Shown one piece after another: positions 1 to 18,688 of a stretch of 64,000 bases of DNA (position 1 is its first letter; every line of letters starts with the position of its first letter). The stretch spans positions 1-64,000 of the IMG/VR virus record IMGVR_UViG_3300045922_000167. The stretch is one strand, 5' to 3'. The DNA is from a virus. Both the position numbers and the translations under genes were made by a program. The notes beneath the pieces are model-generated. The model searched no databases, was not told where the DNA came from, and saw nothing but the letters and a program-made list of their open reading frames with translations.

Positions 1-3000
1 TTATTTCACCAAAAATAATTTTAAATATTTTAGATAATTGTGGGTTTTCAATTAAAATTTTATTGTATTTTTCTATCATTTTTATTTGATCTGTATAACT
101 AGGGGAATACCCATTAGTTAAAGAGAAAAACTTTCTAAAAGGACCTATATTGTCTCTCTCAAATCTTTCAATATCATCAAAAGTTTGTATTAATGCTTTT
201 GCTGTATTTTCTCCTATGGAATTACTATACTGAGCTATTAAATATTGTCTAAATTCTTCTTTAGATAAATTGTATTTAGCTATTTTATTAGGATCAATAC
301 CTGCAGCACTTTTATTAAGCCTACCTTTATTAGCTTTAACTAGCTTACCATGTTCTATAAATGTTACATAATCCACTATTAACGGATGCTTAAAGAATCT
401 AGCTGTATCTTCTAACGGAGTACCTAGCGACACCATAGTAAGCATTTTACCTACAGTTTCCTTACTTACATTTAATTTACCTGTAAGCTGAATTTTTAAG
501 TTATCTAAAATTGTTTGACATAAATCATCTATAAAAGATGGTACTTCTCCGATAGTAAAAAGAGTTTTACTTTCTTCAATTTTTCCTTTGTACTCAATTC
601 TTTTTAATTCCTTAGGTTCGGTACTAGAAGCAGGTACAAAAAAAGTTAATGGTTCTAGTTGAATAGGTAATTCGTCAGTATTTAATGACTGAAGTAACAT
701 GTAAACTTTGTTAAACGTTACCCCAAATCCTACTAAGTCTGTACCAGCTGAATTAGCGTTATGGTAATGGGCTATTTGATTTTTGTAACCGTAAAAGCCA
801 GAGCTACGCTTTGCTTCCACAATAGGATTGTTTAGCGGTGACTCTACGTTATTGGTTGTATTTGGAGAATCTATTAACGCTTCAACGCTTTGATAAGAAA
901 TAGGTTTAGCTGCTTGTGCTTGACTATACGGTAATCTCCATAAATTTATGTAGTTAAGTAATAAATCGTTTTTAAGTTTTTTTGCATTTATTTTTGATGT
1001 ATCTCCTGAGTATTCTTCTTCGGTCGGTACTTCAATAAAAGCTCTATCATTTATAGTTGTAACAGTGTAATTATATGTAGTAAGTTTATCTACGTCAAAG
1101 TCAGAACCCATGAATAAAACTACTTCCGCAGGTACTTGCATTATGTTTACATTAGTGTCAATTATTTCTTTTATTTTAACAATAATTGCACTGTTTTTTC
1201 CAGTACTCGGAATACGTATACCAAACATTTGTAATGTTTGTAAAAACGTTATTAAATCTTCAACTTCATTTAATTCAGCTTGAGTTAAACCTTCCGTGTT
1301 AGCAACGTTATTTTTTAATATTGCTATGTTACTACTATAAGTAATTCCATATCTAGAAATCCTTTCTTTAGCATTTTCTATCCAATTTTCTTTTGGAATT
1401 TCATTAAACAGGTACTCAAATTTTTTAGTAAACTTGTACGGTACTCTAACTTCTACTTCTCCAGATTCTAAAATTTTATTAAAAAATTCTTTTCTAAGAG
1501 CGCTTAACTTTGTTTTTACTGTAGATTTATCTGATTCATTTTGTATTTTTTTTGCTACTTCTATAAAGTGGTTCATTAAACCTTCATGTCCATCTATATC
1601 GAATATTTTCTTTTCTTCGTCAGTAAGTTTCTTTTGATCAAATCTATAATTGTACCATTTTAATCTATTTGGAGTTAAAGCTTTCATATCAGGTTGCAAT
1701 ACGTAATGCGTACCTGGCATTGTTTGTTTAGCTACTTCTTTAGTAAACCATCTAAAAGTAGCTTTAGTTAATTCACTTGCTACCACTGCTAAATTAGAGT
1801 TAATTGAGGAATTACTCAAAATAGAGTACATAGTTTCATCTAAGTTTGTAGGATCTTGCTGAGAATCTAATGCAGCTCTATCACGTATAGCTTGTATAGC
1901 TTTTACACCACTTTTAATTAACTCTTCTGCAATTTTAGTTCTACCCCTATTAAATAACGCTTTAGAAGCTCTTTGTAATTTATTTATTTGCGCTCTATAC
2001 TTACTTATCTCAGAATCTTCCATTGATTTAAGAGAGCTATCAATAAAAGAAGAAACTGCTATATAAAGCTGTTGGGTTGAAACAGAAATACTTTCATTTG
2101 GACTAATCGCCCCTACTGGGTCGTATATCTGAGATTGAGCGTACTCATGTACAGTTCTAAGAGAATCGTCACTTATTATAGGGATTTCATTACCTCCGTT
2201 TAAATAATCAGTTACTAATTGATCTGATGCTGAAATTGGACTAGAATCTTTTCTAGCACTAGGATCTATAAGCCTATCTATTGGAATTATATTATTTTCG
2301 TTTAGATAATTAATTAAATCAGAATATGCTAAAAATTCATCATATTTAGCTTTTTGTAACTTTCTATCATGTAATAATTTTTCTTCTACATTTTTAAAAG
2401 TAGAAGTATCTATTAGTTGCAGATCTACTCTTTTTTTAGATGTATCTATTAAAAATTTAGCTTTTTGTACAGCATTTTGATCACCTTTGTAAGCTAGATT
2501 TAAAAATCTGTCAAATATATCTTGATTTGTGTAATACGTAGTACCATCAATATACATCAATGAGTACTTTTCTAAGTTTACTAATTCTGTCTGCTCATCA
2601 AAGTCAGCATTTTTATCTTTAGTTACAGCACCTAAACTAGTATTATATGTACCCCCATACTTCAAACTTCTTTCATAAGCATAATGAGGAAGCATATAAG
2701 ATATACCATCAGAACCTTCTAAAGGTTCGGTACCGTTAACTAAAACAGCCAGCCCATCGTATGACTTTTTAAATACACTAGGTAAAATGTAAGTTTTTGA
2801 TTGTCCATTGTTTCGTCTAAAAGAACTGTAATTACCAGGATTACCCATGTTGTTTGGTAGGTTAATCCTTTTTTGTATATCTGCACTTCCAGATTGTAAA
2901 ACTACTTGTATATTACGATTTGAATCAAGTTTAGTAGTTTTATATCCATAAATATTACCTACAAGAACGTAAGTATGTGCAATAGAATTTAAATATTGGT

Positions 3001-6000
3001 TTAACGTAAAACATACAAAATGAGCTAGTGTATCTTCTGGTTTTAGATAACCTAAAACGTTTTTAAAAGCTACGTAGTCGTTATTAGCAATATTTAGTAA
3101 AGATGATACTATATGTTGAGCAGCTTCGTCAATATTTGTTATTGTTATTGATTGGTCTCGTAACAGAAAATGTGACAAAATAAAAGAATGTTTAACAGGT
3201 TCGTATAGTACATTTTTAAATTTATGATTAAACTGAATTTGCTCTTGTTCTAAAAATAATTTAACAATAGCAATTGCTTTATTTATTTCAGCATTATAAT
3301 TTTTTTCTAAATCTTCAACAGTAAAAAATTTAGCATTTTCTGCTAATAGTACTCTAGAACTATCTCCTATAGTAGGCATTCTTTGATAGTACTTTTTAGT
3401 TTTATTTTTTACTAACGATTGTCTAAATAAACTATAGTCAATACCAAATAACTCATCAGAAGTTAATTTCTTTTGTGTAGATCTATCATAAAATGTATAT
3501 TCTATTCCTAAAATATCTATTGATGTTTCTAAAGAAAAGGCAGAACTTGATATTTTTATACCATTTTCTTTAAACATATTTTGTAATTGATTTGCTCTAC
3601 GCTTCCAATGTTTATCATTTGGTGTTACAAATCCAGTACCTTGTACGTTTTTTCCTTCCGCATTTAACGTATGAGAGTTATGAAGTCTTGAACTATAATC
3701 TATTAATTGACTTGCTAAATCTAACGTAGCGTTTCTGTAATCTTTGTTATTAGTTGTAGATTTGGTGCTTTCAGTTCCTATGTGTTCTGGAATAATAGTA
3801 GTAAAGAAAGTATTTAAAGCATTTAAGTATTCATCTGCTGTTAATTTACTTACGTTTACTCTCAGTGAAGCATTGAATAAAGAAAAAGCAAACCTTGCAG
3901 CTTCTGTTTTAGCTGTTTCATTTGAAGAAGAAACAAAATTTTCGTTACCCGAAGCTATTAGTTTTTCATCTTTTATTTCTTTACCATTTACTACGTTTGT
4001 TTCATTTTTAAATAATCGCCAACCCCCATTAACAAAAAGTAATTTATACTCTTGTTGTTCCTTGTTAACAGTAATAATAAACTTTATTGATGCGTAGTCT
4101 TCTGTGCTAGTATATTTAAATTTATCTTTATTACCAATAAACTCTAATATATTATTTTCTAATAAATTTCTTGTATTTTCTAGACTATCGTTTACTGTAT
4201 CAAATCTTAGAACAAATTCACCATCTTCATCAATTTTTATTGTAGCATATTGATAATCACGTACAGATTCAGCATAATAAAATAAAGAATTAAATAAGTT
4301 TTGTGCTTGATTTAATTTAATTTTAATATTTTCTTGTTCTAGTAAGTTAGAGGCTATAATATTTTGTTCTTGTACTGTTAACAAGAAACCTGGAGAGTAA
4401 GAACCAGAATTATTTCCATATAATGCTACATATAAAGAAGATAATATAGATAATCTATGATTGTCTAAGTTAATTTTTTCTTCTTCATCTACAATTATTT
4501 CGTTTCCGTATTCATCATATATGTAGTTACCTGTTTTTAGTATAAAGTTTTCTAAATAAGTTTTAAAAGTCATTGGTGTAAGCGGTACACCAGGATTTAA
4601 TTTTTTAAATTCATTAACTTCTATATAAGCAGCTTTAAGTGCTTGCTCTGGGTATAAAAAAGAAGCACTACGATTTCTTACGTTTTGAGTTAAATCTACT
4701 AAAGTTTTAAATAATTCTTTTTGTTGTTCAATAGTTCTTTGTTCAATTGGTATTTGTTGTAATTCTACAACTTTGTTTAATTTATTAATAAAAACACCTA
4801 AACTTTTGCTACTTGCAAATTTAGGAACTACACTTAAAAGTAACTTAATTCCTTCAAAACCTGATAATTCTTGAGTATCTACGCTTGCATTTAAACCACC
4901 TAAATTTTTTAGTAGTTTTTTAGTCTCAGCATCAGTTTGCTCTTCTATACTATCTTCTTCTTGTTTAATTTCTACGTCAGCTTCTTCAGAACCATCATAT
5001 AAGTCATCATCATCTATAGGAACATTAGTATTTTTTTCTTTAGCAATTATTTCCAACTCTTCTTTCTTTAATTTGTCTTTTACATCTTCATCTAAAAATA
5101 TATTAGCTTTACTGTGAGTTATTAAAGACAATAATGTAGCTCCTATTTTGCGTATTTTTTTATCTTCATTTACCATCCAGTACGTATAATATATGTCTGT
5201 TATTAGCTGGTTATTAAACGTACCTCTAGTTGGATCAGGATTTAAACCTACCTCTGCTAACCAATTATCATAGTCATTTATTAAATCAAAATATTCATCA
5301 AACTCTGATCTTATATATCCATTTTCATCAAAAATTATTTCGTATAATTCTTGTAATGGATTAATTGAGCTGTATCCACTTTCTATATATTCCCTTAAAG
5401 ACAAATAAAATTTAGATGGATCATCTGTAAAAGTATTAAATATTTCATTTAATACATTTCTTACTTCATTAGCTTTTTTAAATCTTTCTTCTATACCAAA
5501 ACTTAAATTTGTAGGAGGAAGATTATTGTTTATAGCTAAAGCTGAAAAATTTAATATAGTATCTAAAACTAATTGACTTCTATACTGGTATATAAAATCA
5601 TAATAATGTTTATTATGAGTAAATGGAGCTAAAAGTTCATTTTTATTGCTATTTACTAAACTTTTTTTAGCTTCTATTCTACCAGATTTAGAATAATAAA
5701 TGTGATCGTTTGATAAATTAGGAAGTTTACCTTTATAATAACCTCTTTGTGCTCTGTTAAATAAAAATTTAGGATCGTAAGTTCTTCCAATAAGTATATA
5801 TACTAACTCTTTTAAATAAGAAAATAACTTATTTAATATAGTATCTTTGTAAGGACGTAACTCTTGAAACGTATCTGCCATCCATTCTTCTGCTTCTATA
5901 TCAGAAGACTTTGTATTTTTTAAATACTTTTTCTTTACATAATCAAGATATTTACGTTTTTCGCTATCTGTTACAAAACCATCAAATATTAAGTGAAAAG

Positions 6001-9000
6001 CTTCATGGTACACAGCTTTTCTACTAACTTTTCCTTTATATCTATTTAATCCTATAGTCGCCTTAACGTCTCCACTGAGTATAGATGCAGCCTCGTAGTA
6101 CCCATTTAAAGGTATACCTTTATGCTTTAAGTTATCCTCTATGTTTGTCTGACCATACTTTTCAAACGTTTTACCAAATAGCTCAGTTAGCACACCCTTA
6201 GCTTCTAATTCTGACATATTGTAGTCAGTGTAGTCATTGTCTTCAATACTACGTTTAGAAAAACTAAAATTATTTATATCTACCTTACTTTGTGATGATC
6301 CTTGTGAATTTTGTGAGTTTTGTTGTGGCGTTGACGGTGCTTGTGTAGTTTGTGTTGATGTTGTCGGTGTTTGCGTGGATTGCGGTACAAATCTTCTTAA
6401 TGTTTGTTGCGGTTGCTGTAATGGTATACGAGCTTGTATTTCTACCCCAGTAAACTTAATTATATTACTATATACTACATCATCTATTGAGTTTGCTACG
6501 TCATTTAAGTCAAAAATTTGACCTACTCCAGGTACTCCATTTATAGAGTAATTTTTAAATAAGTCTTTGTGATTTTTACCTTTTGGTAGTACTATGTACT
6601 TGTAATATGCAGTATATAATGGTGAACGTCCATTTTTTTGTTCATACTTTTGTCTGTAAGCGGCATCAAATTTTCTAATTTGTTCTTTAATTATATTTAA
6701 ATTATCTGTAATAGTTTTTGGGTCTGGTCCATGTTGAAAGAAAATTTTACGAGATAACGTAGTTCTTATTAACAACGGAGTTAATGCCATAGTTAAATCT
6801 CGGTTAGCATTTACAAATGAATGTATTTCATTTTCTAATCGTAGAAATTCATCATCTTTTTTAAGATCCTCTTCTGTTAAGTTTTCACGTTTAATTTTGT
6901 CTTGTAACTGTTTTACAGTTTCTTCCCAAGAATCTATTAATTTTTCAATTTCCTCTACGCTTTTAAAGTTTCTTCTGTCTAACGGTAATGGGTATACTAC
7001 ATCATTAGCATCTTTAAATAAAAGATAGGCTCTACCTTTTTCTAAATTAGGTAATTTAGATATATTTTTTGAGTTTGGACTACCAGGAATATATTCTATA
7101 CTAGGATTAATTACATCTGGATAAGTTTCATCATAAACTACAGTATTAGATACATTTACTACTATTTTCCCAATAGAAGTAAGTCCTTCTTTTCCCATAG
7201 CTTCAATTAATTGCGCTATGGTACCACCATTTGTATTAGCAGCAAAAGTAGCACTTCCTATACCAGCTGTTAAATCACTAGCTTGTAATGAAGATAAAAT
7301 ACTTTCAATACTGCCTTCTTCCTCAGGTTTAAAGTTTTGAATAAAGTCATTTGTTTTTTTAATGTATATATATAATGGTGCTTCTTCTGATGTAATATTA
7401 AAAAGTGCAGGAGGGTTTATTTTACTAAATGGTAATATTTCTGCTATAGGTTTTTGATTGTAAGTTATTATTAATTTATTTCTTACTTTATCTAATTGCT
7501 CAACAGAAACATTTAATTTATTTTTTTCCTCATCATTATAAATAGCTTTAAGTAGTATATTCTTATTTAATAAATTAGTTCCAGTTTCGTCTATTAATAC
7601 ATTTATTCTAAGAGGTAAAAAATTAGAAAAATATCTTTTATATATAGCTGTTAATCTACTAGCTATCTCTGCTTCTATTTTAGCCTCTTCGTTTATTTGA
7701 ATTCCGTCAGTTTCATAAACTTTAAGATTTGAATAAATTTTCTTTTTTTCTTCCTCATTAGCTTCTTCTAATATGTTTCTAACTCTTTTTTTAGCTCCTA
7801 TTATTTTATTTAAATTATTAGAAATCTGGTGTAAAACTTCTATCTTTACTGGTAAATTAATTCCTTGGTTATCATTATTTTTTTTACCACCAACATGAAT
7901 AATAGAGTCTTTACCATCAGGTTTAATTTCCGTTGTAATTATATAACAAGGTATAGAGTCTATATCCACATTAGGATCGTCTTTTTTGTGATCCAAAAGA
8001 GCCGAATTAAGTAATTTTACATATTTATTTCTGTAATAAGATGCTTTGTTAGCTTTCGGGTCTTTTGCATCATATAAAGCATTATATGATCTTGCGTAAC
8101 TACTTGTTGGTACTTCTGAAAATTTAGAGAAGTCATGCGTATAGTAAAAATTAAAATAAGTCCATAAACCACCTTTACCTATTACTCTCATAGGTATATT
8201 ATAAAGTATACCTTTATTTATAGAGTTATCAATTTCTCCAACATTTCCAGTTTCATAATTAAGTACATCTGTAATATCAATTTCCACATTAGTTATATCA
8301 CCACCTCCAGTCAACTCAATAATTTTTGATCTTATATTTTTAAGAGTATTTTCTATTAAAGTACTATTTATTGGTTGTAATATACTTGCACTTCCATCTA
8401 TTTTAACAGTTAGATTAGTATTATAATAATCAGTAATTTCTTTAATTTGATTTTCTATTTTACGAGTAAACTCTTCTTTATTAGTAAGTATATAGTTTTT
8501 TATTAAATTGTTAAGTAAATTTCTAAATTGTATAGGTGGATTTTGTAAAGCAGTATTATCCTCAAATTGCTCATCTGCGTCTTTTAAGTTTAAACCTCTT
8601 ACAATATCATAAAGAGTGTCATACTCAGTAGGGTCTATTTCACCAGAAAGAATTTTGTTATGTTCTGGTAGTTTACCATCTACAAAGTTTATCGGTGTGG
8701 TAGGTTCGTTATCTACGTCTACGTCACTTTGTTCTGTTATAGCGTCAGCTAAGTCTTCAGCTTCTGAATCTATTTGCTGTTCGTCTTCTACTTCTACTTC
8801 TTCTACGTCTTCTACGTCTTCTACTTCTTTTCCTTCTACTTCTGTATCAGGCGGTGTGAGCGGTGCAGTGGATGTACCTGTAACGTTTGTACCATCCGTA
8901 ATTGGTGCGGCGTTTTCACCATTAACTATTGGAGTTTTTTTACTTTTTTTTCCTAAACTGTTTATTGATTTTGCTATAACTTCTGAGGTTAAGGTTACTG

Positions 9001-12000
9001 CAAAATTTATATCTTTTTCTAAATCTTCGTATTTGTTTTTTAATTGTTCATGGTATTCTAATGAAATGCTATTAATAGAATGCGCATCATCAATTTCTTT
9101 ACCATTTTGTATATTTTTAACATAAATTTGAATGTCTCTGGGTTCACTTTCATTAATTAATTTTTTTGACTCATTTAATGATTTTCTTAAATCTTTACGA
9201 GTTTGAACAATTTTTTTTACATCTTGAACGGTTAAGTTTTTTATGTTTTTAATTTCATCAAATAGATTATTAAATGTATTTAATGTTTGCTGGGTATTAG
9301 CAACAGATAAAACTGCTTCATTTATTTTATTTACTGCATTTACAAACTCATTATGTTTATAATTTACAGAATGAAGTGTTTTGTAAATTTCAGCATAAGG
9401 AAGTGGAGTTTCACCTATATCATTACCAACTAATCCTAAAAACTTTTTAGTTCTTGTAGCAGCTACTAACATTTGCTTATTGTAAGCTTCAACATTTGAA
9501 GAAGTTATAGTAGCCTTTGGTGGATCCATATCTAAAAATACGTAGTTAGCTTCTTTGCCTTGTGACTCTAATGGAGTCATTATTACTACGTTTTTTACAT
9601 CATTAAATGTTTTTTTATAATTTACTTTTTTAGACTCTGAGTTTGTAATAACAAATATCTTTTCATCGGGATTAGTACTTATTTCTTTTGATTTTTGTTT
9701 AATTAACTCCACTAAATCTGTAGCAGATTCAAATATTTTTACTCCGTATTCTAAATTTTCATCATACGAACTAAAACCACTTGTAGATGCGTAATCATCT
9801 AAAGACGATTCAATGTTGGCAATAAAAGATTTAATAACTGGATCATTATTTCTATACCTAAACATTACAGGTCTAGCAAATAACGACTCATTAAAAGTAC
9901 TTAGTAAAGGAACTGCAGGGTTTTTTACGTCTTTTTGTATTTGTGATGGATCACCAAGTAATACAAAAAAGTTATTAGGATTTGTACGAACTAAATTTTT
10001 TAATTCTTCAACATAAGCAGTATCACCATAAGCTGCTTCATCTACAACAACAATATTGTTACTATTTGTACTTAAATGGTTTTTTAAGTTTGTTAATCCT
10101 GCATTTTTTTCATCTCCTTTATGGTCTATTACTGATGGATTTAACGCACTTAAGGCATTTGTTATAGGCGTTATAGAAGTTTCATTCGGACTTGTAGTTA
10201 CTACATTATTACCAGAAAGCTGGTTAATTATCTCCACAGATGTAGCTACAACAGCAGATGTTTTACCTGCACCTGCTTTACCAAGTAAAACTACGCTGGA
10301 ATCCTTACTTAAATAAGCTAAAACTATATCAGTAATAGATAGTACTTGCTCTAAAGAAAGATAAAGACCTTCTGCTTCAGCATTCGTAAGTTTTTCTTCA
10401 AGAATTTTTAAAAATTGATCGTATAAATTTTTAGATTTTTGACTTTGTTTAATTAAGTGTAATCTTTTTATTTTATTTTGAATTTCGTATAATATCGCTG
10501 TTGAGTTATATTCATTTAAAGTAGTAATTTTGTCAACATTAACTTCTATTTTTTGTTCTTTTAAATATGCAAAAAACGTTTTTAAGTCAGATGCAAACAT
10601 AACAGAATTTCTATGTTCTCCTCTGTACTTTCCAAATATGGTCATTAATAGTCTTGCTGCTTCAACATGTTTTGAATCAGTAATAACGCTTTTTGAATCC
10701 ATATTAAAAAGATAGCCAAGCAATTTCCCATAATTGTAAGTATTTTTAGCAATAACTTCTGGAGAACTCTTACTTTCACCTCCTAAAAAAATGTTACCAG
10801 TTATACCTAATTCTTGATACAACTTTGTGTTTTTTAGCTGAGGTATGTTGTCAATATTAGGAATATTAGAAGCTGCGTCTAACATTACTAAATAATCAGA
10901 TACCGAACCTTTTAAACTGCTTTCAGTAGATCCTTGTAGTCTATTTGAAATTTCAATTAAAACATCGTAAGTAGCGGCTGGTATGTTAGGTACTTTAAGT
11001 AATTCTTTAATTTCAGTAGCTAAAGTATTAAGCGTGTTTACGTTATGTAGGTTAATAGAAGCTAATTCTTTTTTAGCTACTTCTTCTCTTTTTGTTTCCC
11101 ATACATTTAAAAAAGAATCAATTTGATTTAAGACATAATCAAGTTCAGGTTCAAAATTATAAGCATCAAAAACTTTAGCTATTACTTTAAAAGCATCAAT
11201 TAAATCATCTAATTTAGGTGCTATATGTATTACTTTTTCTGGTTCTGTATCTGTAGCTTCAATCGTCTCTTTAGTTCCTTTAGCTACTTCAACAAAGTTT
11301 CTTATAGCCTTAGCTTTATTAATAATACTTTCTATACCAACAGAAGTTAATCCTCCGTTTTGTATTATGTTATTATCTTCAATTAATCCTTGTACTATAC
11401 CTTCTAAAGTATTTAACAACGTAAAAGATTCTAATTCAAGGTCTTTAGAAAGATTTGTAAGTAATTTTTTCTTATCTATTTCTAGTTTTAATATTTTCTT
11501 TAAGTCGTCAAGATATTTTTTAACTTCTTCGCTCGACGCAATTATAGCATTTTTAAGTTTTTCAATACTTTCAGGACTTTGCGTTGTATTTTCATATTTT
11601 GTAATAAAATCTGAAATTTTATTATATTGATCATCTGAAGTTGGATCAAATCCAATTACTGTAGCTTCGTTTTCAATTTGCTTTTTTCTTTCTTTTAACC
11701 TTTTTACAAATTTATCAAAAAACTCTTTTGCTTTTTCGTTAAAAATTCCTTCAAATTTTGTTTCAAAATCTTCTAGTTGTTTTAAGTTTAAACTTTTTAT
11801 TATATTTTTAAATACATTTAAACTATCTTTATTTTTAAAACTACTAAACAAATTAGAAGAAACACCTATATTAATATCGTTATATGTTTTAGGCTCAATC
11901 GGTATACCAATAAAATCAAAAGCCTCTATAGGATTTCCTTCTGCATCTTTAAGCGTTTCATTTATTACAAATGAATCAAAAGATATATTTTTTAGATAGT

Positions 12001-15000
12001 TGTTTAACTTCTCAGCATTTGGTATTTTCGGTCTAACAATTACATCCCCATTATTTGATAATGTTAAATCAAGTAGATTAAATGGAGAATTAGCAATAGA
12101 AACATCTAAAATAGATGTATTCTTTGCTTGAGTTTTTTCAAAATATTTAGAAACTTCTGGATCAAACCTGCTATTAAATATTTTAGCCTGATTGTGTAAA
12201 AAGTTAATTCTAGCTGCCTGTAAAGCTTTTTGTTTTTTATTTAAAAGAGATACATTATTTTTAGTTTCTTCTTCTGATAATACAAGGTTATTAGCTTCAT
12301 TACGTTCTTTAAAATATATTAAATTCGCTTTAGCTAGCTCTACAAAACCACCTGACTGCATTACCATTAAACGAGTACTTAAGTTATCATACTCTTTATA
12401 GGCATTTTTTATATCTTCTTTAATAAGTTCTTTTTCAGCTGGTGGTATATCAACATCTTTTAATTTAGCTTCTTGATCTACAATATATCTTTGTAAATAA
12501 TGTTGATGTGCTAAAGTATCAGTTACTTTTTTAGTATATTTATTATGGAAATTTTTTAAGAAAACTTTATCATTTTCATCTAGATCTAATCCATAATAAG
12601 ATGAATTATCTACATTAAACCAACTTAACGGTTTAAGTAAAGATTTTTTTGTACTTCCAAATAATTTATTTATTTCTATTTCAGTTTCTACTCTATCAAT
12701 TAAAAATTCTTTTAAGAATTCTTCAGCATTTAAACTTTCTGGTTTAATTCCTGTTTTACGTTCAAAAGTTTCGTAAAACATTTTTAATAAGTTATAATCT
12801 CCTTTACTTACTGCATCTATATCTTCTTCTGTAGCTAATCCTTTATTTTTTAGTACTTGTAATTCAAATAATAGTTGTGATTTTGTTTTATCTATTGTAG
12901 AAACACCTACGTGACTTGACTTTAATTTTGATGGTGATAATAGTTGTAAAGTATATTCCTGTGTATCAGGCGAAAAAGTACCTAAAGTATGTTTAGCTAC
13001 ATCGGATAAATCCATTGATCTAATAGCATCAATTATTGTGTTTTTATCCGTAAACTCTAACATACTAAGTACGTTATCAGATACACTTGCTAATTTTTCT
13101 ATTTTAGCATTTGTTTTAAACTGACGTATTCCTTGAAGGAAAGCAGTAGGAGCACCTGAACCAAAGCCTAATAGCGCACCTTTTAAAGAGTTATTAAATG
13201 CTCTTACGTAGTTAAAACTACCATCTTCATCTGCTGATACCATACCTCCACTGAGCATTCGTTCAGCCACTAGTATTTTGTCTGGGTGGTTCTTATACTT
13301 TTCATACAAATGAAATGAAGCTATTTCTTCATGTAAAGTTTCCTTAAATTCATCAAAAAACTCAGCAGAAAAAGGCGTTGCTGATGTTAATACTCTTTTC
13401 GCTATTGTAGGAATTACTATGTCTTTTTTAAATTCTTTCAAATAAGCTGAAACAGCTTGAGGTCCATACAAGCTATTTAATGCTATCTTTTGTATAGCTT
13501 GTTCATGTAATTTAGTTGCGTTAACAAAAAATGGTTTTAAGTTAGCTTCAGGTAAAAACGCACTAGTTAACATGTACAAAGAACCAAGTTCTTGTGCTGC
13601 TATGGCTGCATCTTCTGGGTCTATACCTATTCTAATCCAATCTTGGTAAATAGATTCTACGGCTATTTTAGTAAACGTATTATTGGCAAAATAATTTGCC
13701 ATAAATGCGTCTAAAATTTTAATATTACTTGCTGCTGGGTTAGCAATTATTTTACTTGCTCCAGCTACGAGCTTTTCGCCAGACCAAAATAAAGGTTTTA
13801 ACGGCGTACTTCTTGCTGCTTTGTAAGCTTCACCAACACCAGAAACTAAACTTTCTCCAGCTTTAACAGCTCCAGGCAAATACTTAGTAGTAGCCTTTGA
13901 GATTGGTCTATATATAGCAGAAAATTTTGCGTTTATTACGTCATCTGTAAAAGTTAAACCTTTACCAACAACTTTACCTGCAAGTCCTAAAGCACTTCCA
14001 GTAGTAGCTGTTTTTGCTAAAATACGAGAACCAATAGCACCGCCTAATTTAGCACCTCCTTGTACACCTTTAGATACTGCGCCACCAACAAATAAAGTAG
14101 GTATTGCTGGAACAACGCTACCTATCGTAAAAGGAATAGCAGTTTCGTAAAAATCTGGAGTAATTAAAGACATAAAAGCCTCTGGATACGTACTAGGTTT
14201 ATCTATACTAAAATTGCTAAATAACTCATCTACGTTTTTTGGTCTATCTGCAAATGGATGAGCTTCTTTATAACCACGTAATTTAGATAAATTAGCTGCG
14301 TAAGACTTAAATAACTCTGCACGATTTAGTAATCCTAAATCATTACCTTCTATACCTAAAGCAGAAAAAGCAGCTGAACTTGGATTTTTTACAGTACCAG
14401 CATTAAGTATAACTTCATCAAAAAAGCCATTTAAAGCATCTGTAATAACATTGACATTAGGCATAATATATTTAGCCCCAATGTTTACCCAAAGTTTTTC
14501 ATACCATTCGTTTGGCGTAAACTCATAGTTTTCTTGTTTTCTTTTATTTTCTACTAAAGAAAGAACTTGAAAATATCTAGCGTCTTTTTTTAAAATGTCT
14601 CTTAAAGCTGCTTGCTCAGGTGTATCGTTTTCCTCGTAAAAACTTAACGGAGTATATTTTACTTTTTGAGTTTTTGCTATATCTTTTAAGACATCTTGAA
14701 AAAGAGAAAAATGAGGAAACCTACTAGCTTCATATCTAGCATTTCTTATGTTTTCCCAATTATCTTTAACGAGTTTAACCGATTCTGTACCTACTCTGGT
14801 TAAAAATCCAGTTACACCTCTTTCTAATATTTCATCTGCTGATCCATACCCACCAGATGTATTTAACGCACGAGACAGTAAATAAGGATTTCCTTTTTCC
14901 TCGTCTGTTAACTCTCTATAAGTTGGTATAGGTATATTATTTTTATCTACTTTCCATTTATCTTGTGGCTCTAAAATTATTACTTTGCCTTTATAATCTC

Positions 15001-15376
15001 CTTTTTTTAATTTGTTTATATCTAATGTTTTCCAATTATTGTCGTTTGCTATATAAAGGTTTTTAGCAAGAGTTAAATTTTGTATATCAGGATGATCGTT
15101 AGGATTAATTTTAGGTATATTTTCTTTTTCGTATTCGTGATAGATTTTACGATTAATTAAGGACTCATTAAAAAGACTTCCAATAGAAGAATGATAACCG
15201 CTTATACCATAAGAGTTTTTATATAAAGCTTTAATATTAGCTTTAACTGAAGTTTGGTTAATATATTCTTCTAAGGATTTAGTATTTTTATATCCTTCGT
15301 GAATTCTTTCATTATCACTACCTACAGGTGGATCTTGTTTTGGTGGTTCTGGTTGTATTAATAAACTTTCAGGCAT
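1..15376 (-). CDS. Giant crAss-like virion RNA polymerase polyprotein (partial, C-terminus beyond the window)
   Basis: I read 5,125 codons without a stop from the ATG at 15376 to the left edge, so the C-terminus is missing. Domains in order: a Gly/Ala-rich hydrophobic stretch around residues 405-470; an SF1 helicase-like module with Walker A GKAGAGKT (1699-1706), Walker B DEAA (1779-1782) and motif VI VAATRTKK (1971-1978); an acidic Glu/Val/Asp repeat near 2180-2195; a Thr/Gln/Pro/Ser-rich linker near 2980-3025; a zinc-metallopeptidase motif HEAFH (3124-3128); and MGSDFDVDK with DFDVD at 4759-4763. DFDxD is the metal-binding double-psi beta-barrel signature of the RNA polymerase of crAss-like phages such as phi14:2. 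Family knowledge says this enzyme is packaged and transcribes early genes. It is the last gene of the virion arm. I infer that the protease could process the polyprotein; the N-terminal 1,650 residues are unassigned. Confidence 0.9.
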   Translation of the reverse strand, partial: MPESLLIQPEPPKQDPPVGSDNERIHEGYKNTKSLEEYINQTSVKANIKALYKNSYGISGYHSSIGSLFNESLINRKIYHEYEKENIPKINPNDHPDIQNLTLAKNLYIANDNNWKTLDINKLKKGDYKGKVIILEPQDKWKVDKNNIPIPTYRELTDEEKGNPYLLSRALNTSGGYGSADEILERGVTGFLTRVGTESVKLVKDNWENIRNARYEASRFPHFSLFQDVLKDIAKTQKVKYTPLSFYEENDTPEQAALRDILKKDARYFQVLSLVENKRKQENYEFTPNEWYEKLWVNIGAKYIMPNVNVITDALNGFFDEVILNAGTVKNPSSAAFSALGIEGNDLGLLNRAELFKSYAANLSKLRGYKEAHPFADRPKNVDELFSNFSIDKPSTYPEAFMSLITPDFYETAIPFTIGSVVPAIPTLFVGGAVSKGVQGGAKLGGAIGSRILAKTATTGSALGLAGKVVGKGLTFTDDVINAKFSAIYRPISKATTKYLPGAVKAGESLVSGVGEAYKAARSTPLKPLFWSGEKLVAGASKIIANPAASNIKILDAFMANYFANNTFTKIAVESIYQDWIRIGIDPEDAAIAAQELGSLYMLTSAFLPEANLKPFFVNATKLHEQAIQKIALNSLYGPQAVSAYLKEFKKDIVIPTIAKRVLTSATPFSAEFFDEFKETLHEEIASFHLYEKYKNHPDKILVAERMLSGGMVSADEDGSFNYVRAFNNSLKGALLGFGSGAPTAFLQGIRQFKTNAKIEKLASVSDNVLSMLEFTDKNTIIDAIRSMDLSDVAKHTLGTFSPDTQEYTLQLLSPSKLKSSHVGVSTIDKTKSQLLFELQVLKNKGLATEEDIDAVSKGDYNLLKMFYETFERKTGIKPESLNAEEFLKEFLIDRVETEIEINKLFGSTKKSLLKPLSWFNVDNSSYYGLDLDENDKVFLKNFHNKYTKKVTDTLAHQHYLQRYIVDQEAKLKDVDIPPAEKELIKEDIKNAYKEYDNLSTRLMVMQSGGFVELAKANLIYFKERNEANNLVLSEEETKNNVSLLNKKQKALQAARINFLHNQAKIFNSRFDPEVSKYFEKTQAKNTSILDVSIANSPFNLLDLTLSNNGDVIVRPKIPNAEKLNNYLKNISFDSFVINETLKDAEGNPIEAFDFIGIPIEPKTYNDINIGVSSNLFSSFKNKDSLNVFKNIIKSLNLKQLEDFETKFEGIFNEKAKEFFDKFVKRLKERKKQIENEATVIGFDPTSDDQYNKISDFITKYENTTQSPESIEKLKNAIIASSEEVKKYLDDLKKILKLEIDKKKLLTNLSKDLELESFTLLNTLEGIVQGLIEDNNIIQNGGLTSVGIESIINKAKAIRNFVEVAKGTKETIEATDTEPEKVIHIAPKLDDLIDAFKVIAKVFDAYNFEPELDYVLNQIDSFLNVWETKREEVAKKELASINLHNVNTLNTLATEIKELLKVPNIPAATYDVLIEISNRLQGSTESSLKGSVSDYLVMLDAASNIPNIDNIPQLKNTKLYQELGITGNIFLGGESKSSPEVIAKNTYNYGKLLGYLFNMDSKSVITDSKHVEAARLLMTIFGKYRGEHRNSVMFASDLKTFFAYLKEQKIEVNVDKITTLNEYNSTAILYEIQNKIKRLHLIKQSQKSKNLYDQFLKILEEKLTNAEAEGLYLSLEQVLSITDIVLAYLSKDSSVVLLGKAGAGKTSAVVATSVEIINQLSGNNVVTTSPNETSITPITNALSALNPSVIDHKGDEKNAGLTNLKNHLSTNSNNIVVVDEAAYGDTAYVEELKNLVRTNPNNFFVLLGDPSQIQKDVKNPAVPLLSTFNESLFARPVMFRYRNNDPVIKSFIANIESSLDDYASTSGFSSYDENLEYGVKIFESATDLVELIKQKSKEISTNPDEKIFVITNSESKKVNYKKTFNDVKNVVIMTPLESQGKEANYVFLDMDPPKATITSSNVEAYNKQMLVAATRTKKFLGLVGNDIGETPLPYAEIYKTLHSVNYKHNEFVNAVNKINEAVLSVANTQQTLNTFNNLFDEIKNIKNLTVQDVKKIVQTRKDLRKSLNESKKLINESEPRDIQIYVKNIQNGKEIDDAHSINSISLEYHEQLKNKYEDLEKDINFAVTLTSEVIAKSINSLGKKSKKTPIVNGENAAPITDGTNVTGTSTAPLTPPDTEVEGKEVEDVEDVEEVEVEDEQQIDSEAEDLADAITEQSDVDVDNEPTTPINFVDGKLPEHNKILSGEIDPTEYDTLYDIVRGLNLKDADEQFEDNTALQNPPIQFRNLLNNLIKNYILTNKEEFTRKIENQIKEITDYYNTNLTVKIDGSASILQPINSTLIENTLKNIRSKIIELTGGGDITNVEIDITDVLNYETGNVGEIDNSINKGILYNIPMRVIGKGGLWTYFNFYYTHDFSKFSEVPTSSYARSYNALYDAKDPKANKASYYRNKYVKLLNSALLDHKKDDPNVDIDSIPCYIITTEIKPDGKDSIIHVGGKKNNDNQGINLPVKIEVLHQISNNLNKIIGAKKRVRNILEEANEEEKKKIYSNLKVYETDGIQINEEAKIEAEIASRLTAIYKRYFSNFLPLRINVLIDETGTNLLNKNILLKAIYNDEEKNKLNVSVEQLDKVRNKLIITYNQKPIAEILPFSKINPPALFNITSEEAPLYIYIKKTNDFIQNFKPEEEGSIESILSSLQASDLTAGIGSATFAANTNGGTIAQLIEAMGKEGLTSIGKIVVNVSNTVVYDETYPDVINPSIEYIPGSPNSKNISKLPNLEKGRAYLLFKDANDVVYPLPLDRRNFKSVEEIEKLIDSWEETVKQLQDKIKRENLTEEDLKKDDEFLRLENEIHSFVNANRDLTMALTPLLIRTTLSRKIFFQHGPDPKTITDNLNIIKEQIRKFDAAYRQKYEQKNGRSPLYTAYYKYIVLPKGKNHKDLFKNYSINGVPGVGQIFDLNDVANSIDDVVYSNIIKFTGVEIQARIPLQQPQQTLRRFVPQSTQTPTTSTQTTQAPSTPQQNSQNSQGSSQSKVDINNFSFSKRSIEDNDYTDYNMSELEAKGVLTELFGKTFEKYGQTNIEDNLKHKGIPLNGYYEAASILSGDVKATIGLNRYKGKVSRKAVYHEAFHLIFDGFVTDSEKRKYLDYVKKKYLKNTKSSDIEAEEWMADTFQELRPYKDTILNKLFSYLKELVYILIGRTYDPKFLFNRAQRGYYKGKLPNLSNDHIYYSKSGRIEAKKSLVNSNKNELLAPFTHNKHYYDFIYQYRSQLVLDTILNFSALAINNNLPPTNLSFGIEERFKKANEVRNVLNEIFNTFTDDPSKFYLSLREYIESGYSSINPLQELYEIIFDENGYIRSEFDEYFDLINDYDNWLAEVGLNPDPTRGTFNNQLITDIYYTYWMVNEDKKIRKIGATLLSLITHSKANIFLDEDVKDKLKKEELEIIAKEKNTNVPIDDDDLYDGSEEADVEIKQEEDSIEEQTDAETKKLLKNLGGLNASVDTQELSGFEGIKLLLSVVPKFASSKSLGVFINKLNKVVELQQIPIEQRTIEQQKELFKTLVDLTQNVRNRSASFLYPEQALKAAYIEVNEFKKLNPGVPLTPMTFKTYLENFILKTGNYIYDEYGNEIIVDEEEKINLDNHRLSILSSLYVALYGNNSGSYSPGFLLTVQEQNIIASNLLEQENIKIKLNQAQNLFNSLFYYAESVRDYQYATIKIDEDGEFVLRFDTVNDSLENTRNLLENNILEFIGNKDKFKYTSTEDYASIKFIITVNKEQQEYKLLFVNGGWRLFKNETNVVNGKEIKDEKLIASGNENFVSSSNETAKTEAARFAFSLFNASLRVNVSKLTADEYLNALNTFFTTIIPEHIGTESTKSTTNNKDYRNATLDLASQLIDYSSRLHNSHTLNAEGKNVQGTGFVTPNDKHWKRRANQLQNMFKENGIKISSSAFSLETSIDILGIEYTFYDRSTQKKLTSDELFGIDYSLFRQSLVKNKTKKYYQRMPTIGDSSRVLLAENAKFFTVEDLEKNYNAEINKAIAIVKLFLEQEQIQFNHKFKNVLYEPVKHSFILSHFLLRDQSITITNIDEAAQHIVSSLLNIANNDYVAFKNVLGYLKPEDTLAHFVCFTLNQYLNSIAHTYVLVGNIYGYKTTKLDSNRNIQVVLQSGSADIQKRINLPNNMGNPGNYSSFRRNNGQSKTYILPSVFKKSYDGLAVLVNGTEPLEGSDGISYMLPHYAYERSLKYGGTYNTSLGAVTKDKNADFDEQTELVNLEKYSLMYIDGTTYYTNQDIFDRFLNLAYKGDQNAVQKAKFLIDTSKKRVDLQLIDTSTFKNVEEKLLHDRKLQKAKYDEFLAYSDLINYLNENNIIPIDRLIDPSARKDSSPISASDQLVTDYLNGGNEIPIISDDSLRTVHEYAQSQIYDPVGAISPNESISVSTQQLYIAVSSFIDSSLKSMEDSEISKYRAQINKLQRASKALFNRGRTKIAEELIKSGVKAIQAIRDRAALDSQQDPTNLDETMYSILSNSSINSNLAVVASELTKATFRWFTKEVAKQTMPGTHYVLQPDMKALTPNRLKWYNYRFDQKKLTDEEKKIFDIDGHEGLMNHFIEVAKKIQNESDKSTVKTKLSALRKEFFNKILESGEVEVRVPYKFTKKFEYLFNEIPKENWIENAKERISRYGITYSSNIAILKNNVANTEGLTQAELNEVEDLITFLQTLQMFGIRIPSTGKNSAIIVKIKEIIDTNVNIMQVPAEVVLFMGSDFDVDKLTTYNYTVTTINDRAFIEVPTEEEYSGDTSKINAKKLKNDLLLNYINLWRLPYSQAQAAKPISYQSVEALIDSPNTTNNVESPLNNPIVEAKRSSGFYGYKNQIAHYHNANSAGTDLVGFGVTFNKVYMLLQSLNTDELPIQLEPLTFFVPASSTEPKELKRIEYKGKIEESKTLFTIGEVPSFIDDLCQTILDNLKIQLTGKLNVSKETVGKMLTMVSLGTPLEDTARFFKHPLIVDYVTFIEHGKLVKANKGRLNKSAAGIDPNKIAKYNLSKEEFRQYLIAQYSNSIGENTAKALIQTFDDIERFERDNIGPFRKFFSLTNGYSPSYTDQIKMIEKYNKILIENPQLSKIFKIIFGEI

Positions 15377-15427: not shown

Positions 15428-17347
15428 TTATTGTTTTTCTTGGGCGTTCATTACTTCTTTTGTTTTGGCTATTACATCTTGCATAGATCGTGCAATATTA
15501 GGATTTGTAGATGTAGTTAAATCAACAAATCCATAGGGTATAATTACTTCAATAGTAGGACCTGTGTGAATAGCATAAACTGTAGCCTTATCATAAGAAG
15601 TAATTGGATGTTTACTATCTAAAGTTTTTGTTATTGTATTATAAGTTGCTTCATTTTGTTTTTGTAAACTAGATATTACTAGTTTACCTAATAAATCTAA
15701 AACTTTACTATCTATAAGGGTACTATCATAGTCATTTTCTGCAGTTTTAAAAGTTATTTTTAATGGTGCTTTTACCCCATATCCTTTAGTAGAAGAAGGA
15801 TTATGATCTTTATCAAGAGCTAACACAACTCCAGGAGGTGAACTAGAAAAAAGGTCGTAATCTACTTTTACCGCTATATTTTCTAAACTTAAAATATTGG
15901 ATATGTTTTTATCGTTATTATTGAAATTCTTTTTAATCTTGTCGTTTAGCTGATTATAATAAGCTTTAGCTCTATCTGTAACAAAATTACCTCTTGTAAG
16001 TCTTTCTCGTATAGTTCCTATAGTAGTTGTTGGTATTGTAACAGTTTCATCTCGAGTATCAAATATACCAAATCTTAAGGATTGATTACCAATATAATTA
16101 TCACCTATAAATCTTACTAAATTAGTAGCAAAAGCTTCTTTACCATCTTGAACTACTTTTATTGTTGATAACCCAGTAGAGTTACCTATAGTAATAGGCT
16201 TATTTAGTGTATGAGAAAAGAAAGATACATATTTATCTGGATTTTTTACATCTTTCCCTCCACCCTCTCCTCTTCCTCCACTACCAGTACCACTAGCTAT
16301 TTTTTCTATTCTTGAATGTCTATATCCAGATGGGTCAAAATATTCTAAATAAGATTTAAGTAAGTTTATATGTTTATTTTCAGGAGTTTCTACTACATTA
16401 CCTTTTTTGTTTTTTTGTAAAGACTTTTCATGGTTTGTTATAAATTCTAAAGCATTATTGTAAGTAAATAACTTATTATCTGAAATAAACTTTAAAAAGT
16501 CTTCACTTAAATTATCTAAATTGCGTTTAGATGAATTAACTAATTCACTTACACTGTTACTTTCATCTGGTTTAAAAATGTCATTAAATCTATGTTTAAC
16601 TATTAAAGATTTAATTAAAGGAAAATTACTTATATTTTCTCTATATAAATTATCTCTTATTGCAGTTAAATTTGTAATATTATCATTAGTTCCATAAGAT
16701 TCTTCTATTGTTTTTGCAGCTTCGTATTTTTTATGTACTTCTTTTTTTAATTCTTCTATATAATCAACTTGTGGGCTAGATAAATCTATATTACCAGAAG
16801 CTGGGTCAATTTCTTGTTCCTCTCTATACTTGCTATATATACGTGGATTTTCTACTAAAAATTTAGCTAATTTTGTATTAACATCATTTTCATTTTTAGT
16901 GCCATGAAGAAAAGTACTAAATTGATTATAATCATCAAATTCTTGTTTAAATTTTGCAGCTAAACCTGTTAGTTCTGTATTTTTTTCCTGAATAGCTTGT
17001 TTACTTCTTATGTAATTAGGATCAAAGTTTTTAAGACCGACACTAGCTTGAGCTTTGTAACCGTAGTGACTTTGTACTAATTTTTGTAAATTATTAAGAT
17101 GACTTTCAAATTCACTACGCCTATGGGGTAACATAGGACTTTTGTTATCAACAGTTAGTTTGTAATCTTCATGTCCCATGAACGCATTTTGATCATCAAA
17201 CCTTTTTTGTTGAAGTTCTGCTTCTTTCATAGCTAAAGCTTGTTCTTTAGCTTTTTTAGCCTCCTCCATCTCAATCATTTTCATGTAATATGGAGAATGG
17301 TCATCTAAAGACGGTCCTAAAGGTTTTATTGGCTCAAACTGACTCAT
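15428..17347 (-). CDS. Internal virion ('cargo'-type) protein, 639 aa
   Basis: This 639-aa protein is Lys/Glu/Asn-rich and looks mostly helical at its N-terminus, with a charged coiled-coil-like stretch rich in Glu, Lys, Ala and Gln at residues 25-50. A Gly-rich hinge (GTGSGGRGEGGG) near residue 350 separates it from a more beta-like C-terminal half. No enzymatic motif is visible. Its place directly before the giant polymerase gene, about 50 bp away on the same strand, matches the cargo and ejection proteins of crAss-like phages, which travel in the particle and enter the cell with the polymerase. The function is inferred from position and composition only. Confidence 0.6.
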   Translation of the reverse strand: MSQFEPIKPLGPSLDDHSPYYMKMIEMEEAKKAKEQALAMKEAELQQKRFDDQNAFMGHEDYKLTVDNKSPMLPHRRSEFESHLNNLQKLVQSHYGYKAQASVGLKNFDPNYIRSKQAIQEKNTELTGLAAKFKQEFDDYNQFSTFLHGTKNENDVNTKLAKFLVENPRIYSKYREEQEIDPASGNIDLSSPQVDYIEELKKEVHKKYEAAKTIEESYGTNDNITNLTAIRDNLYRENISNFPLIKSLIVKHRFNDIFKPDESNSVSELVNSSKRNLDNLSEDFLKFISDNKLFTYNNALEFITNHEKSLQKNKKGNVVETPENKHINLLKSYLEYFDPSGYRHSRIEKIASGTGSGGRGEGGGKDVKNPDKYVSFFSHTLNKPITIGNSTGLSTIKVVQDGKEAFATNLVRFIGDNYIGNQSLRFGIFDTRDETVTIPTTTIGTIRERLTRGNFVTDRAKAYYNQLNDKIKKNFNNNDKNISNILSLENIAVKVDYDLFSSSPPGVVLALDKDHNPSSTKGYGVKAPLKITFKTAENDYDSTLIDSKVLDLLGKLVISSLQKQNEATYNTITKTLDSKHPITSYDKATVYAIHTGPTIEVIIPYGFVDLTTSTNPNIARSMQDVIAKTKEVMNAQEKQ

Positions 17348-17368: not shown

Positions 17369-18688
17369 TTAATTAAATTTTATTTTAGGTGCGTACCAAA
17401 GACTTGATTTTAATGGTTTACCTATCAAACGTTCTCCTAAACTTGAAGCGGAATTTAATGAATTAGTACTTTGTGGTAATGAATTTATTTGACTATTTGC
17501 TGTACCAAATGATTCAGGTTCTTCATTAGAACTGTATGAACTTAAATTATTAGAGTTAACAGAACCAAGAATAGGATTAGATATGCTAGGTCTTAAACTT
17601 GGGTTATTTTGACCTAATTGTTGTTTATATATATTAAAAAGGTTGTTATTCATACCGTGAGTATTCAAATCCTTAAACAAAGACTGACCAGTACCTATCA
17701 TTCCTTGCAACGTCTGCATTTTAGTATTATGTCTCATTATCTCATCTTGGTATTTAGCCATAGCATTTTGATTACGAGACTGGTTTTCTTGAGCTGCATA
17801 TTGGTTATCCAGCTGACCTAATTGCATTTCTAAGTTAGACCTTTGCATACCTAAGTCAGCTTGCTGTCGTGCAAGATCATTTTGGGCAGAAAGTGCCGTA
17901 CCTTGCGCTTGGTTAGTTAACGCAGCTGCAATAGCTGCAAAAGGCGTACTACGTTGTGCTTGGTTTGCAGCGTTCGTTAGTTGATTATTTATCCTTTGTG
18001 CTTGACCACTGAGAGCGTTCTGACTCGCCTGAGCAAAGTTATTACGCGCAGCTCCCATAAACGATCTATTTGCCTGAAAGTCTTGTAGCTTAGGCATTTT
18101 AATTTTGTTTTGCCTAGTTATACTATACGCACCTAAGCCTATGTTAGCAGCTGCTAAACCACCTGCTATGTATGGATTAGCAGTAGCTAAACCAGCTAAT
18201 GCTTTTTTATATGAGTCTAATTCCTTGCGTTGTTTCATAGCTTCTTGTTTAAATACTGAGTCGTCTGCTGAAGATAATAATTCTATTAAATATTTATGTT
18301 CTCTAATGAATTTTTTTCTTGGTAGTTCAATCTTACCTCCAGTATCTTTTTTCTTGTCTTTACCATCAGGTAGTTGATTATGTACATACTCTTTTTCTTC
18401 TGAAGTTAATCTAAGATAATCATCTTTTTTTATTCTTCCTACTCTACTTTGTGTAGGTATTATCATTCCACCAGCTTTAAATTCTCCTTTAATACCATTT
18501 TGTGAATGATATCTTCCTTGTAAATCCCATATATGATATTTACCATCATGCCCCATATACTTTGCTTTACCACCTGATATAATTTTAGGAGGTTCAGGAT
18601 CAGTATGTACGTACAGTTCATTATTTTCAGCTTCTATTTTAACATACGGTGTAGATTTTATATATTTACCGTTTTTAATATCTTTCAT
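17369..18688 (-). CDS. Internal virion protein, Ala/Gln-rich helical, 439 aa
   Basis: The first ~75 residues are Gly/Tyr/His-rich (MGHDGKYH near 45 and a hydrophobic AGGMIIP near 73). A charged region follows, then a small hydrophobic Ala/Gly patch around residues 165-190 (LATANPYIAGGLAAANIG). From about 200 to 345 comes a long Asn/Gln/Ala helical segment (QAQ, NNQ and AAQEN repeats), typical of ejected or membrane-active internal virion proteins of podoviruses. The tail is Ser/Asn-rich. The gene ends 21 bp before the next virion gene. Its ATG is only 3 bp from the ATG of the divergent plus-strand gene at 18692, so no promoter fits between them. The role is inferred; no family was firmly recognised. 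Confidence 0.6.
   Translation of the reverse strand: MKDIKNGKYIKSTPYVKIEAENNELYVHTDPEPPKIISGGKAKYMGHDGKYHIWDLQGRYHSQNGIKGEFKAGGMIIPTQSRVGRIKKDDYLRLTSEEKEYVHNQLPDGKDKKKDTGGKIELPRKKFIREHKYLIELLSSADDSVFKQEAMKQRKELDSYKKALAGLATANPYIAGGLAAANIGLGAYSITRQNKIKMPKLQDFQANRSFMGAARNNFAQASQNALSGQAQRINNQLTNAANQAQRSTPFAAIAAALTNQAQGTALSAQNDLARQQADLGMQRSNLEMQLGQLDNQYAAQENQSRNQNAMAKYQDEIMRHNTKMQTLQGMIGTGQSLFKDLNTHGMNNNLFNIYKQQLGQNNPSLRPSISNPILGSVNSNNLSSYSSNEEPESFGTANSQINSLPQSTNSLNSASSLGERLIGKPLKSSLWYAPKIKFN

Follow-up and report, generated by a model that had tools for sequence, protein, structure and literature searches.

A probable virion RNA polymerase joined to two zincin domains and an SF1 helicase in one giant chain of a deep-branching Crassvirales phage

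In a deep-branching Crassvirales phage, a single minus-strand gene in the 64,000-nucleotide stretch of DNA analysed here (the window) probably specifies the cargo of the virion RNA polymerase as one chain of 6,813 residues, a reading with an estimated probability of about three in four. The order of domains along the chain would be an N-terminal part that resembles gp47 and has an SF1 helicase inserted into it, zincin 1, a gp50-like two-barrel RNA polymerase, zincin 2 and possibly a gp49-like C-terminus. Profile searches demonstrate sequence homology for zincin 1, the polymerase, zincin 2 and the helicase, and pieces of the same architecture recur in 80 further loci. Packaging of the chain in the head would be followed by its passage through the tail in a partly unfolded state, before or together with the DNA, and by refolding in the host, where it would transcribe early genes. 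The helicase would most likely work on incoming phage DNA beside the polymerase, in promoter opening or template clearing. Both zincins are intact and may cut the chain at the linkers next to them, but for zincin 1 a primarily structural or packaging role is an equally good reading. In phage phi14:2, ejection, refolding and early transcription by the virion RNA polymerase have been demonstrated. Transcription of early genes by the virion RNA polymerase of crAss phages has been reviewed (PMC10136315).

Giant reading frame

The frame opens with an ATG at window position 15376 and reaches base 2 without meeting a stop, which gives 5,125 codons inside the window, itself bases 1-64,000 of a 90,888-bp record. 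A 127-bp exact direct repeat is common to both ends of the record, as expected of a circular assembly, and reading across the junction adds 1,688 codons before a stop is reached. The complete gene comprises 20,442 nt, about 22% of the genome, and encodes a protein of 6,813 aa and 771.8 kDa. At the given base composition, a run of 6,813 codons without a stop would arise by chance with log10 P ~-277. The remaining five frames contain 199-769 stops each, and GC content by codon position is even along the whole giant frame; together these properties give no sign of a frameshift, which had been raised as a possible error. The preliminary description, made from the window, reported an uninterrupted frame of more than 5,100 codons with helicase, HEAFH and DFDVD features in the same chain. 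That account holds, and reading past the left edge of the window through the circular junction adds another zinc motif further along the chain, HEVAH (aa 5548). The positions of the features are presented in Table 1.

Table 1. Features of the giant chain and its two neighbours, in window coordinates unless stated otherwise
Feature	Position	Strand	Basis
Giant ORF	2..15376, continuing through junction to ~record 85,696 (L003:8696)	-	Frame reading, end repeat
N-terminal region, aa 1-1640, at place of phiCrAss001 gp47	10457..15376	-	Position only
Gly/Ala-rich hydrophobic stretch, aa 413-475, membrane-active-looking	13952..14140	-	Low-entropy segment 430-475, sequence reading
SF1 helicase core, aa 1696-1980	9437..10291	-	PF01443 E=5.3e-12; motifs I, Ia, II, III, IV, V, VI complete
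Acidic linker past helicase, aa 2164-2224	8705..8887	-	Low complexity
Thr/Gln/Ser linker ahead of zincin 1, aa 2980-3048	6233..6439	-	Low complexity
Zincin-1 (metallopeptidase-like) domain, aa 3018-3225	5702..6325	-	Leave-out profile E=1.9e-18
HEAFH zinc motif, aa 3124-3128	5993..6007	-	Motif
Glu 3164, predicted third zinc ligand	5885..5887	-	Invariant Glu column, 48 sequences
Acidic linker past zincin 1, aa 3423-3484	4925..5110	-	Low complexity
Lys 4376	2249..2251	-	Invariant column K138; aligned with SAVKVG motif of relatives
RNA polymerase core, aa 4429-4884	725..2092	-	Leave-out profile E=8e-16
DFDVD metal-binding motif, aa 4759-4763	1088..1102	-	Motif search, alignment, invariant column
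639-aa neighbour, at place of cargo genes gp45/gp46 in phiCrAss001	15428..17347	-	Gene order only; no Pfam match
439-aa neighbour, at place of cargo genes gp45/gp46 in phiCrAss001	17369..18688	-	Gene order only; no Pfam match

RNA polymerase and Crassvirales membership

Profiles of the polymerase, zincin 1 and zincin 2 were built without the giant protein and run on the protein, on its reverse and on a shuffled version. The polymerase profile recovered the giant (8e-16), and the reversed and shuffled controls were negative. The polymerase family profile, which includes the giant, matches a single solved structure, 6vr4, the virion RNA polymerase of phi14:2, with E=1.4e-101. From the alignment, we infer that Lys 4376 is the catalytic lysine of the first barrel. 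The sequence marks of a Crassvirales virion RNA polymerase, namely DFDxD within homologous sequence, the relation to 6vr4 and the invariant lysine, are all found in the giant.

The structural genes of the phage match Crassvirales PHROGs (major capsid protein 9e-43, portal 9e-91, TerL 7e-85), and two tail genes match CrAss_Ring_1 (1.7e-40) and CrAss_Ring_2 (4.4e-33). These matches and the polymerase profiles confirm the earlier assignment of the chain to the giant polymerase proteins of Crassvirales. Identity of the major capsid protein to named phages does not exceed ~25%, and that of TerL to named phages and viral contigs is ~23-35%. Judging from these sequences and from the branch of the giant in the polymerase tree, the longest of 95, the phage is a deep-branching and fast-evolving member of the order. 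Single-protein scans with the polymerase part, TerL and the helicase, which near copies might escape, found no close relatives, and direct tblastn of the polymerase part, the helicase and the zincin-1 region against phage records gave no match. No Pfam match to IHF was obtained among the structural-block ORFs scanned, a scan that covered part of the small ORFs.

Zincin domains

A second leave-out profile of zincin 1 also matched the giant at 1.5e-15, with negative reversed and shuffled controls. Zincin 2 (aa 5478-5648), which combines the HEVAH motif with a downstream Glu, is located just outside the window; its leave-out profile matched at 2.4e-13, and the controls gave nothing comparable. 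HExxH and the conserved downstream Glu are present in both domains, and the HEAFH motif that was initially read as a metallopeptidase signature belongs to a zincin-type HExxH...E site that is conserved. A census of 66 zincin-1 domains showed that H, E, H and E are all kept in 56. The AF2 model of zincin 1 is confident only near the HExxH helices, and a Foldseek search with this partly confident model returned no PDB match and only weak matches to crAss proteins in the viral library.

Nine sequences (L158, L159, L163, L168, L176, G012, G015, G023, and G028) form a clade with an SH-aLRT of 100 in the polymerase tree, in which W-E-x-x-R...T/I replaces H-E-x-x-H...E (YWEAFRR for YHEAFHR). These are single ORFs of 5.1-5.7k aa, among the longest, and the zincin-1 domain is still detected in the members scored, with E values from 1e-19 to 1e-29. 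Zincin 1 of this clade is apparently a dead peptidase. The joint loss of the three ligands suggests that they form one site, and retention of the domain after this loss indicates that it has a role beyond catalysis. As zincin 1 of these giants lacks all three zinc ligands, autoproteolysis by this domain cannot be a universal requirement. Where the triad is kept, catalysis is probably real.

SF1 helicase

The helicase of the giant chain scores 46.5 bits against PF01443, for which the gathering cut-off is 21, and it was also recovered in a search of its own genome with E=8.2e-14. Its motif sequences include GKAGAGKT, DEAA, and GDPSQ, followed by motifs IV-VI in order. A single-sequence AF2 model made with no alignment reached a pLDDT of 39 and is unusable. 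At the level of sequence, the SF1 module that was first recognised by eye has clear helicase homology.

An N-terminal PF01443 helicase within a polymerase chain was absent from all 90 other records searched; since PF01443 overlooks some SF1 helicases, such as that of L191, the P-loops of the same ORFs were counted as well, and the absence is based on both. The P-loop-like motifs of the giants G015, G028, and G023 were considered as helicases and judged not to be. Three other polymerase chains, L167 (4,334 aa), L191 (2,521 aa), and L213 (2,394 aa), carry an SF1 helicase C-terminal to zincin 2, which is RecD/Pif1-like in each case (AAA_30 1.6e-21, 6e-27, and 6.6e-17, respectively). The L167 record has a Crassvirales portal at 1.3e-131. 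Helicase, zincin and polymerase in one chain are therefore a rare combination and not a unique one, and the N-terminal position of the helicase occurs only in the giant among the relatives examined. The unlike positions and unlike best families suggest that the N- and C-terminal helicases were acquired separately. The polymerase tree of 95 sequences cannot settle a common helicase origin, because the giant is its longest branch and is grouped with L208, which also has a long branch.

L191 has an extra kinase-like P-loop (GHPGLGKT) ahead of its helicase. The phage itself encodes a second, free-standing SF1 helicase of the RecD2 type in the replication block (59602-61152; TIGR01448 1e-29, under the curated cut-off), which is only distantly like the helicase of the giant chain.

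Linkers and terminal regions

Low-complexity linkers are located behind the helicase, on either side of zincin 1 and right before zincin 2, the last being a Lys/Glu-rich segment outside the window (aa 5436-5479). The acidic and Thr/Gln linkers of the preliminary description are real, and a second acidic linker follows zincin 1. Among 52 relatives, which are not independent of one another, 18 have an unusually low-complexity stretch ahead of zincin 1, against an expected 10%. A Pfam profile scan recognised no domain in aa 1-1640. At the other end of the chain, tblastn gave a marginal match of the C-terminus to gp49 (5e-4), and a profile test was no better than the shuffled control; the C-terminal block is possibly gp49-like.

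Comparison with other Crassvirales

The comparison set consisted of the big ORFs around DFDxD in related records and 80 further polymerase loci from viral contigs. DFDxD was located in 18 of the 32 related records. Chains of 4,500-6,387 aa with both HEAxH and DFDxD are common, and in most relatives the HEAxH domain lies ~1,400-1,900 residues before DFDxD. By motif counts over the 80 loci, many of which are incomplete, zincin 1 and the polymerase share one ORF in 45, three of which (L150, L164, and L211) have zincin 2 in the same ORF; in 18 more the polymerase is followed by an HExxH motif, and three of these 18 carry a P-loop helicase. In this order, a polymerase joined to a protease-like domain is nothing unusual, since chains of up to 6,386 aa with HEAFH and DFDID exist. 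Giant polymerase chains of up to ~6,000 aa have been described as a hallmark of Crassvirales (PMC10136315), and the giant is thus a variation on a known type. The preliminary interpretation is borne out in part, and its emphasis on a protease in the polymerase chain needs to be narrowed, because protease and polymerase commonly occur together, as HEAxH before DFDxD in most relatives and gp47 of phiCrAss001 illustrate, whereas the helicase is the rare element.

Three further observations come from other records. In L155 (L155:2-3700), the ORF right upstream of the polymerase ORF has a kinase-like P-loop domain (GTSGSGKSTFIKSLP...DTTNLTKEKR). Zincin-2-like domains occur in a 2,748-aa protein of Leptolyngbya phage Lbo-JY46 (PP438436; Crassvirales portal match 1.7e-110), the host of which is a cyanobacterium, and in a 2,482-aa protein of Tenacibaculum phage Gundel_1 (MT732474; Crassvirales portal match 1.0e-78).

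Known systems

The virion cargo of phiCrAss001 comprises gp47, gp49, and gp50 (PMC10172136), and these virion proteomics suggest that the giant, too, would be delivered into the host. The HEAFH domain of gp47 (zincin 1, 1e-36) and the DFDVD polymerase of gp50 (1e-171) are homologous to parts of the giant, and in both phages the genes come after those for tail and cargo proteins. In phiCrAss001, however, the three proteins are encoded by three genes on two strands, and they contain neither the helicase nor zincin 2. The HEAFH of gp47 sits 184 residues from its C-terminus. When the gp47/gp50 border was mapped onto the giant from both motifs, it fell at aa 3308 when the zincin motif was the starting point and at aa 3277 when the polymerase motif was, so that the two units abut in the giant; this border is ~115-145 residues ahead of the second acidic linker.

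The virion RNA polymerase gp66 of phi14:2 is, like that of the giant, a two-barrel single-chain enzyme, but its solved chain has ~2,190 residues, and the protease-like and helicase domains are additional in the giant. gp23 of cr272_1 (NC_055903) is an annotated single CDS of 6,386 aa with HEAFH and DFDID. It differs in that a second HExxH protein is encoded by the next gene, outside the chain, that no helicase was found and that TAG codes for an amino acid. Polyvalent proteins, including the N4 virion RNA polymerase, are likewise injected multidomain chains that combine an RNA polymerase with zincin metallopeptidases and other enzymes, although the N4 polymerase is T7-like and not two-barrel (PMC5512222). 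The giant also unites several unrelated enzymatic domains and a zincin in one phage chain, as polyvalent proteins do; crAss phages are not mentioned by Iyer et al. 2017 (PMC5512222). In the available text on Thermus phage P23-45, gp96 is described as a two-barrel virion RNA polymerase fused into a giant virion protein (5,002 aa) with a metallopeptidase domain; this protein serves as the tape measure of the tail in a long-tailed phage, and that text makes no mention of a helicase (PMC10770324).

Alternative explanations

An assembly artefact, in the form of a false fusion over the ends of the record or of a stop that was missed, is very improbable. The record was assembled from a metagenome, and its circular join depends on the 127-bp overlap, but this overlap is exact and leaves the reading frame intact, and the polymerase-homologous region itself crosses the junction, which supports the circular join. 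In addition, 15.4 kb of the open frame falls entirely within the contig, and L150, L164, and L211 show zincin 1, DFDID and zincin 2 in one unbroken frame. An assembly or frameshift artefact was ruled out on the exact in-frame repeat, the homology over the junction and the codon-position GC. For the helicase, a role unrelated to transcription, in entry or defence evasion, where the helicase would unwind incoming DNA or strip bound proteins in the manner of polyvalent-protein ATPases, appears unlikely. SNF2-type ATPases are frequent in polyvalent injected proteins (PMC5512222), and the SF1 helicases occupy two different chain positions, N-terminal in the giant and C-terminal in L167, L191, and L213, which argues against a fixed polymerase-subunit role; however, the searches of the giant chain gave no partner domain related to defence.

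Whether the chain cuts itself divides the remaining explanations. The two zincins may cut at the linkers, in line with the idea of the preliminary description, and release gp47-, gp50-, and gp49-like units, which are separate in other Crassvirales. Cleavage at the linkers is plausible because linkers and the gene borders of split relatives lie near the zincins: linkers flank both domains, the low-complexity stretch before zincin 1 is over-represented among relatives, gp47 of phiCrAss001 ends shortly after its HEAFH, and the L183 and L209 ORFs start ~100 residues before the HEAFH position. HExxH...E is intact in both domains of the giant and the ligands are kept in most zincin-1 domains, and self-processing was proposed by Iyer et al. 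for polyvalent proteins, with P1 DdrB as a precedent (PMC5512222). Such a polyprotein is nevertheless somewhat doubtful, and cleavage as a general rule is weakened, by the clade that has lost the zinc ligands and still forms one ORF; moreover, the N4 virion RNA polymerase, which likewise has a zincin, is packaged uncut (PMC5512222), and the linkers may serve merely as flexible hinges during ejection. It is conceivable, at slightly less than even odds, that the chain stays whole, and that the zincins either enter the host as effectors and cleave its proteins or have a purely structural or packaging role. The zincin region of the N4 virion RNA polymerase is needed for encapsidation without processing (PMC5512222), and the ligand-loss clade has retained the domain. 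Against this, the triad is strictly conserved in nearly all other lineages, which argues for catalysis there, and there is no known host target. A bolder and rather improbable proposal combines these elements into a self-maturing transcription-entry machine, in which the helicase would act as a motor on the incoming DNA by the polymerase of the ejected chain and the flanking zincins would free the polymerase after refolding in the host; the ligand-loss clade would have given up cutting for a permanently fused form.

Significance

The human gut virome is dominated by Crassvirales. In much of the order, the polymerase is accompanied by a zincin, which is also present in gp47 of the cultured phiCrAss001, and a protease domain in these Crassvirales proteins is not mentioned in the literature searched, a set that excluded Yutin 2018 and Drobysheva 2021. 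The zinc site has been lost in a naturally occurring group of relatives, and SF1 helicases have been joined to the chain at two places. With the widespread zincin, the inactivated clade and the helicases, chain cutting and the importance of the zincin domain become directly testable in cultured phages. The zincin beside the polymerase, the inactivated clade and the recurrent SF1 helicases are of specialist interest.

Other features of the genome

TerL contains a Ser/Asn/Thr/Asp-rich insertion at 35331-35423 (NSTNDRSTNDGSTSSTNDSSRNDDSR), between its ATPase and nuclease parts, that is absent from the aligned relatives. A collagen-like triple-helix protein (L002:7156-8283, record 71156-72283; PF01391 6e-10) adjoins a holin-family gene. 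Two adjacent proteins at L003:2366-4912 (record 79366-81912) show weak similarity, below the cut-off, to the SprB repeat, a repeat of Bacteroidota gliding adhesins, and this similarity hints at a Bacteroidota host. In the adhesin region, two similar large proteins of 652 and 678 aa lie side by side (L002:11119-13077 and L003:104-2140), apparently as a result of tandem gene duplication.
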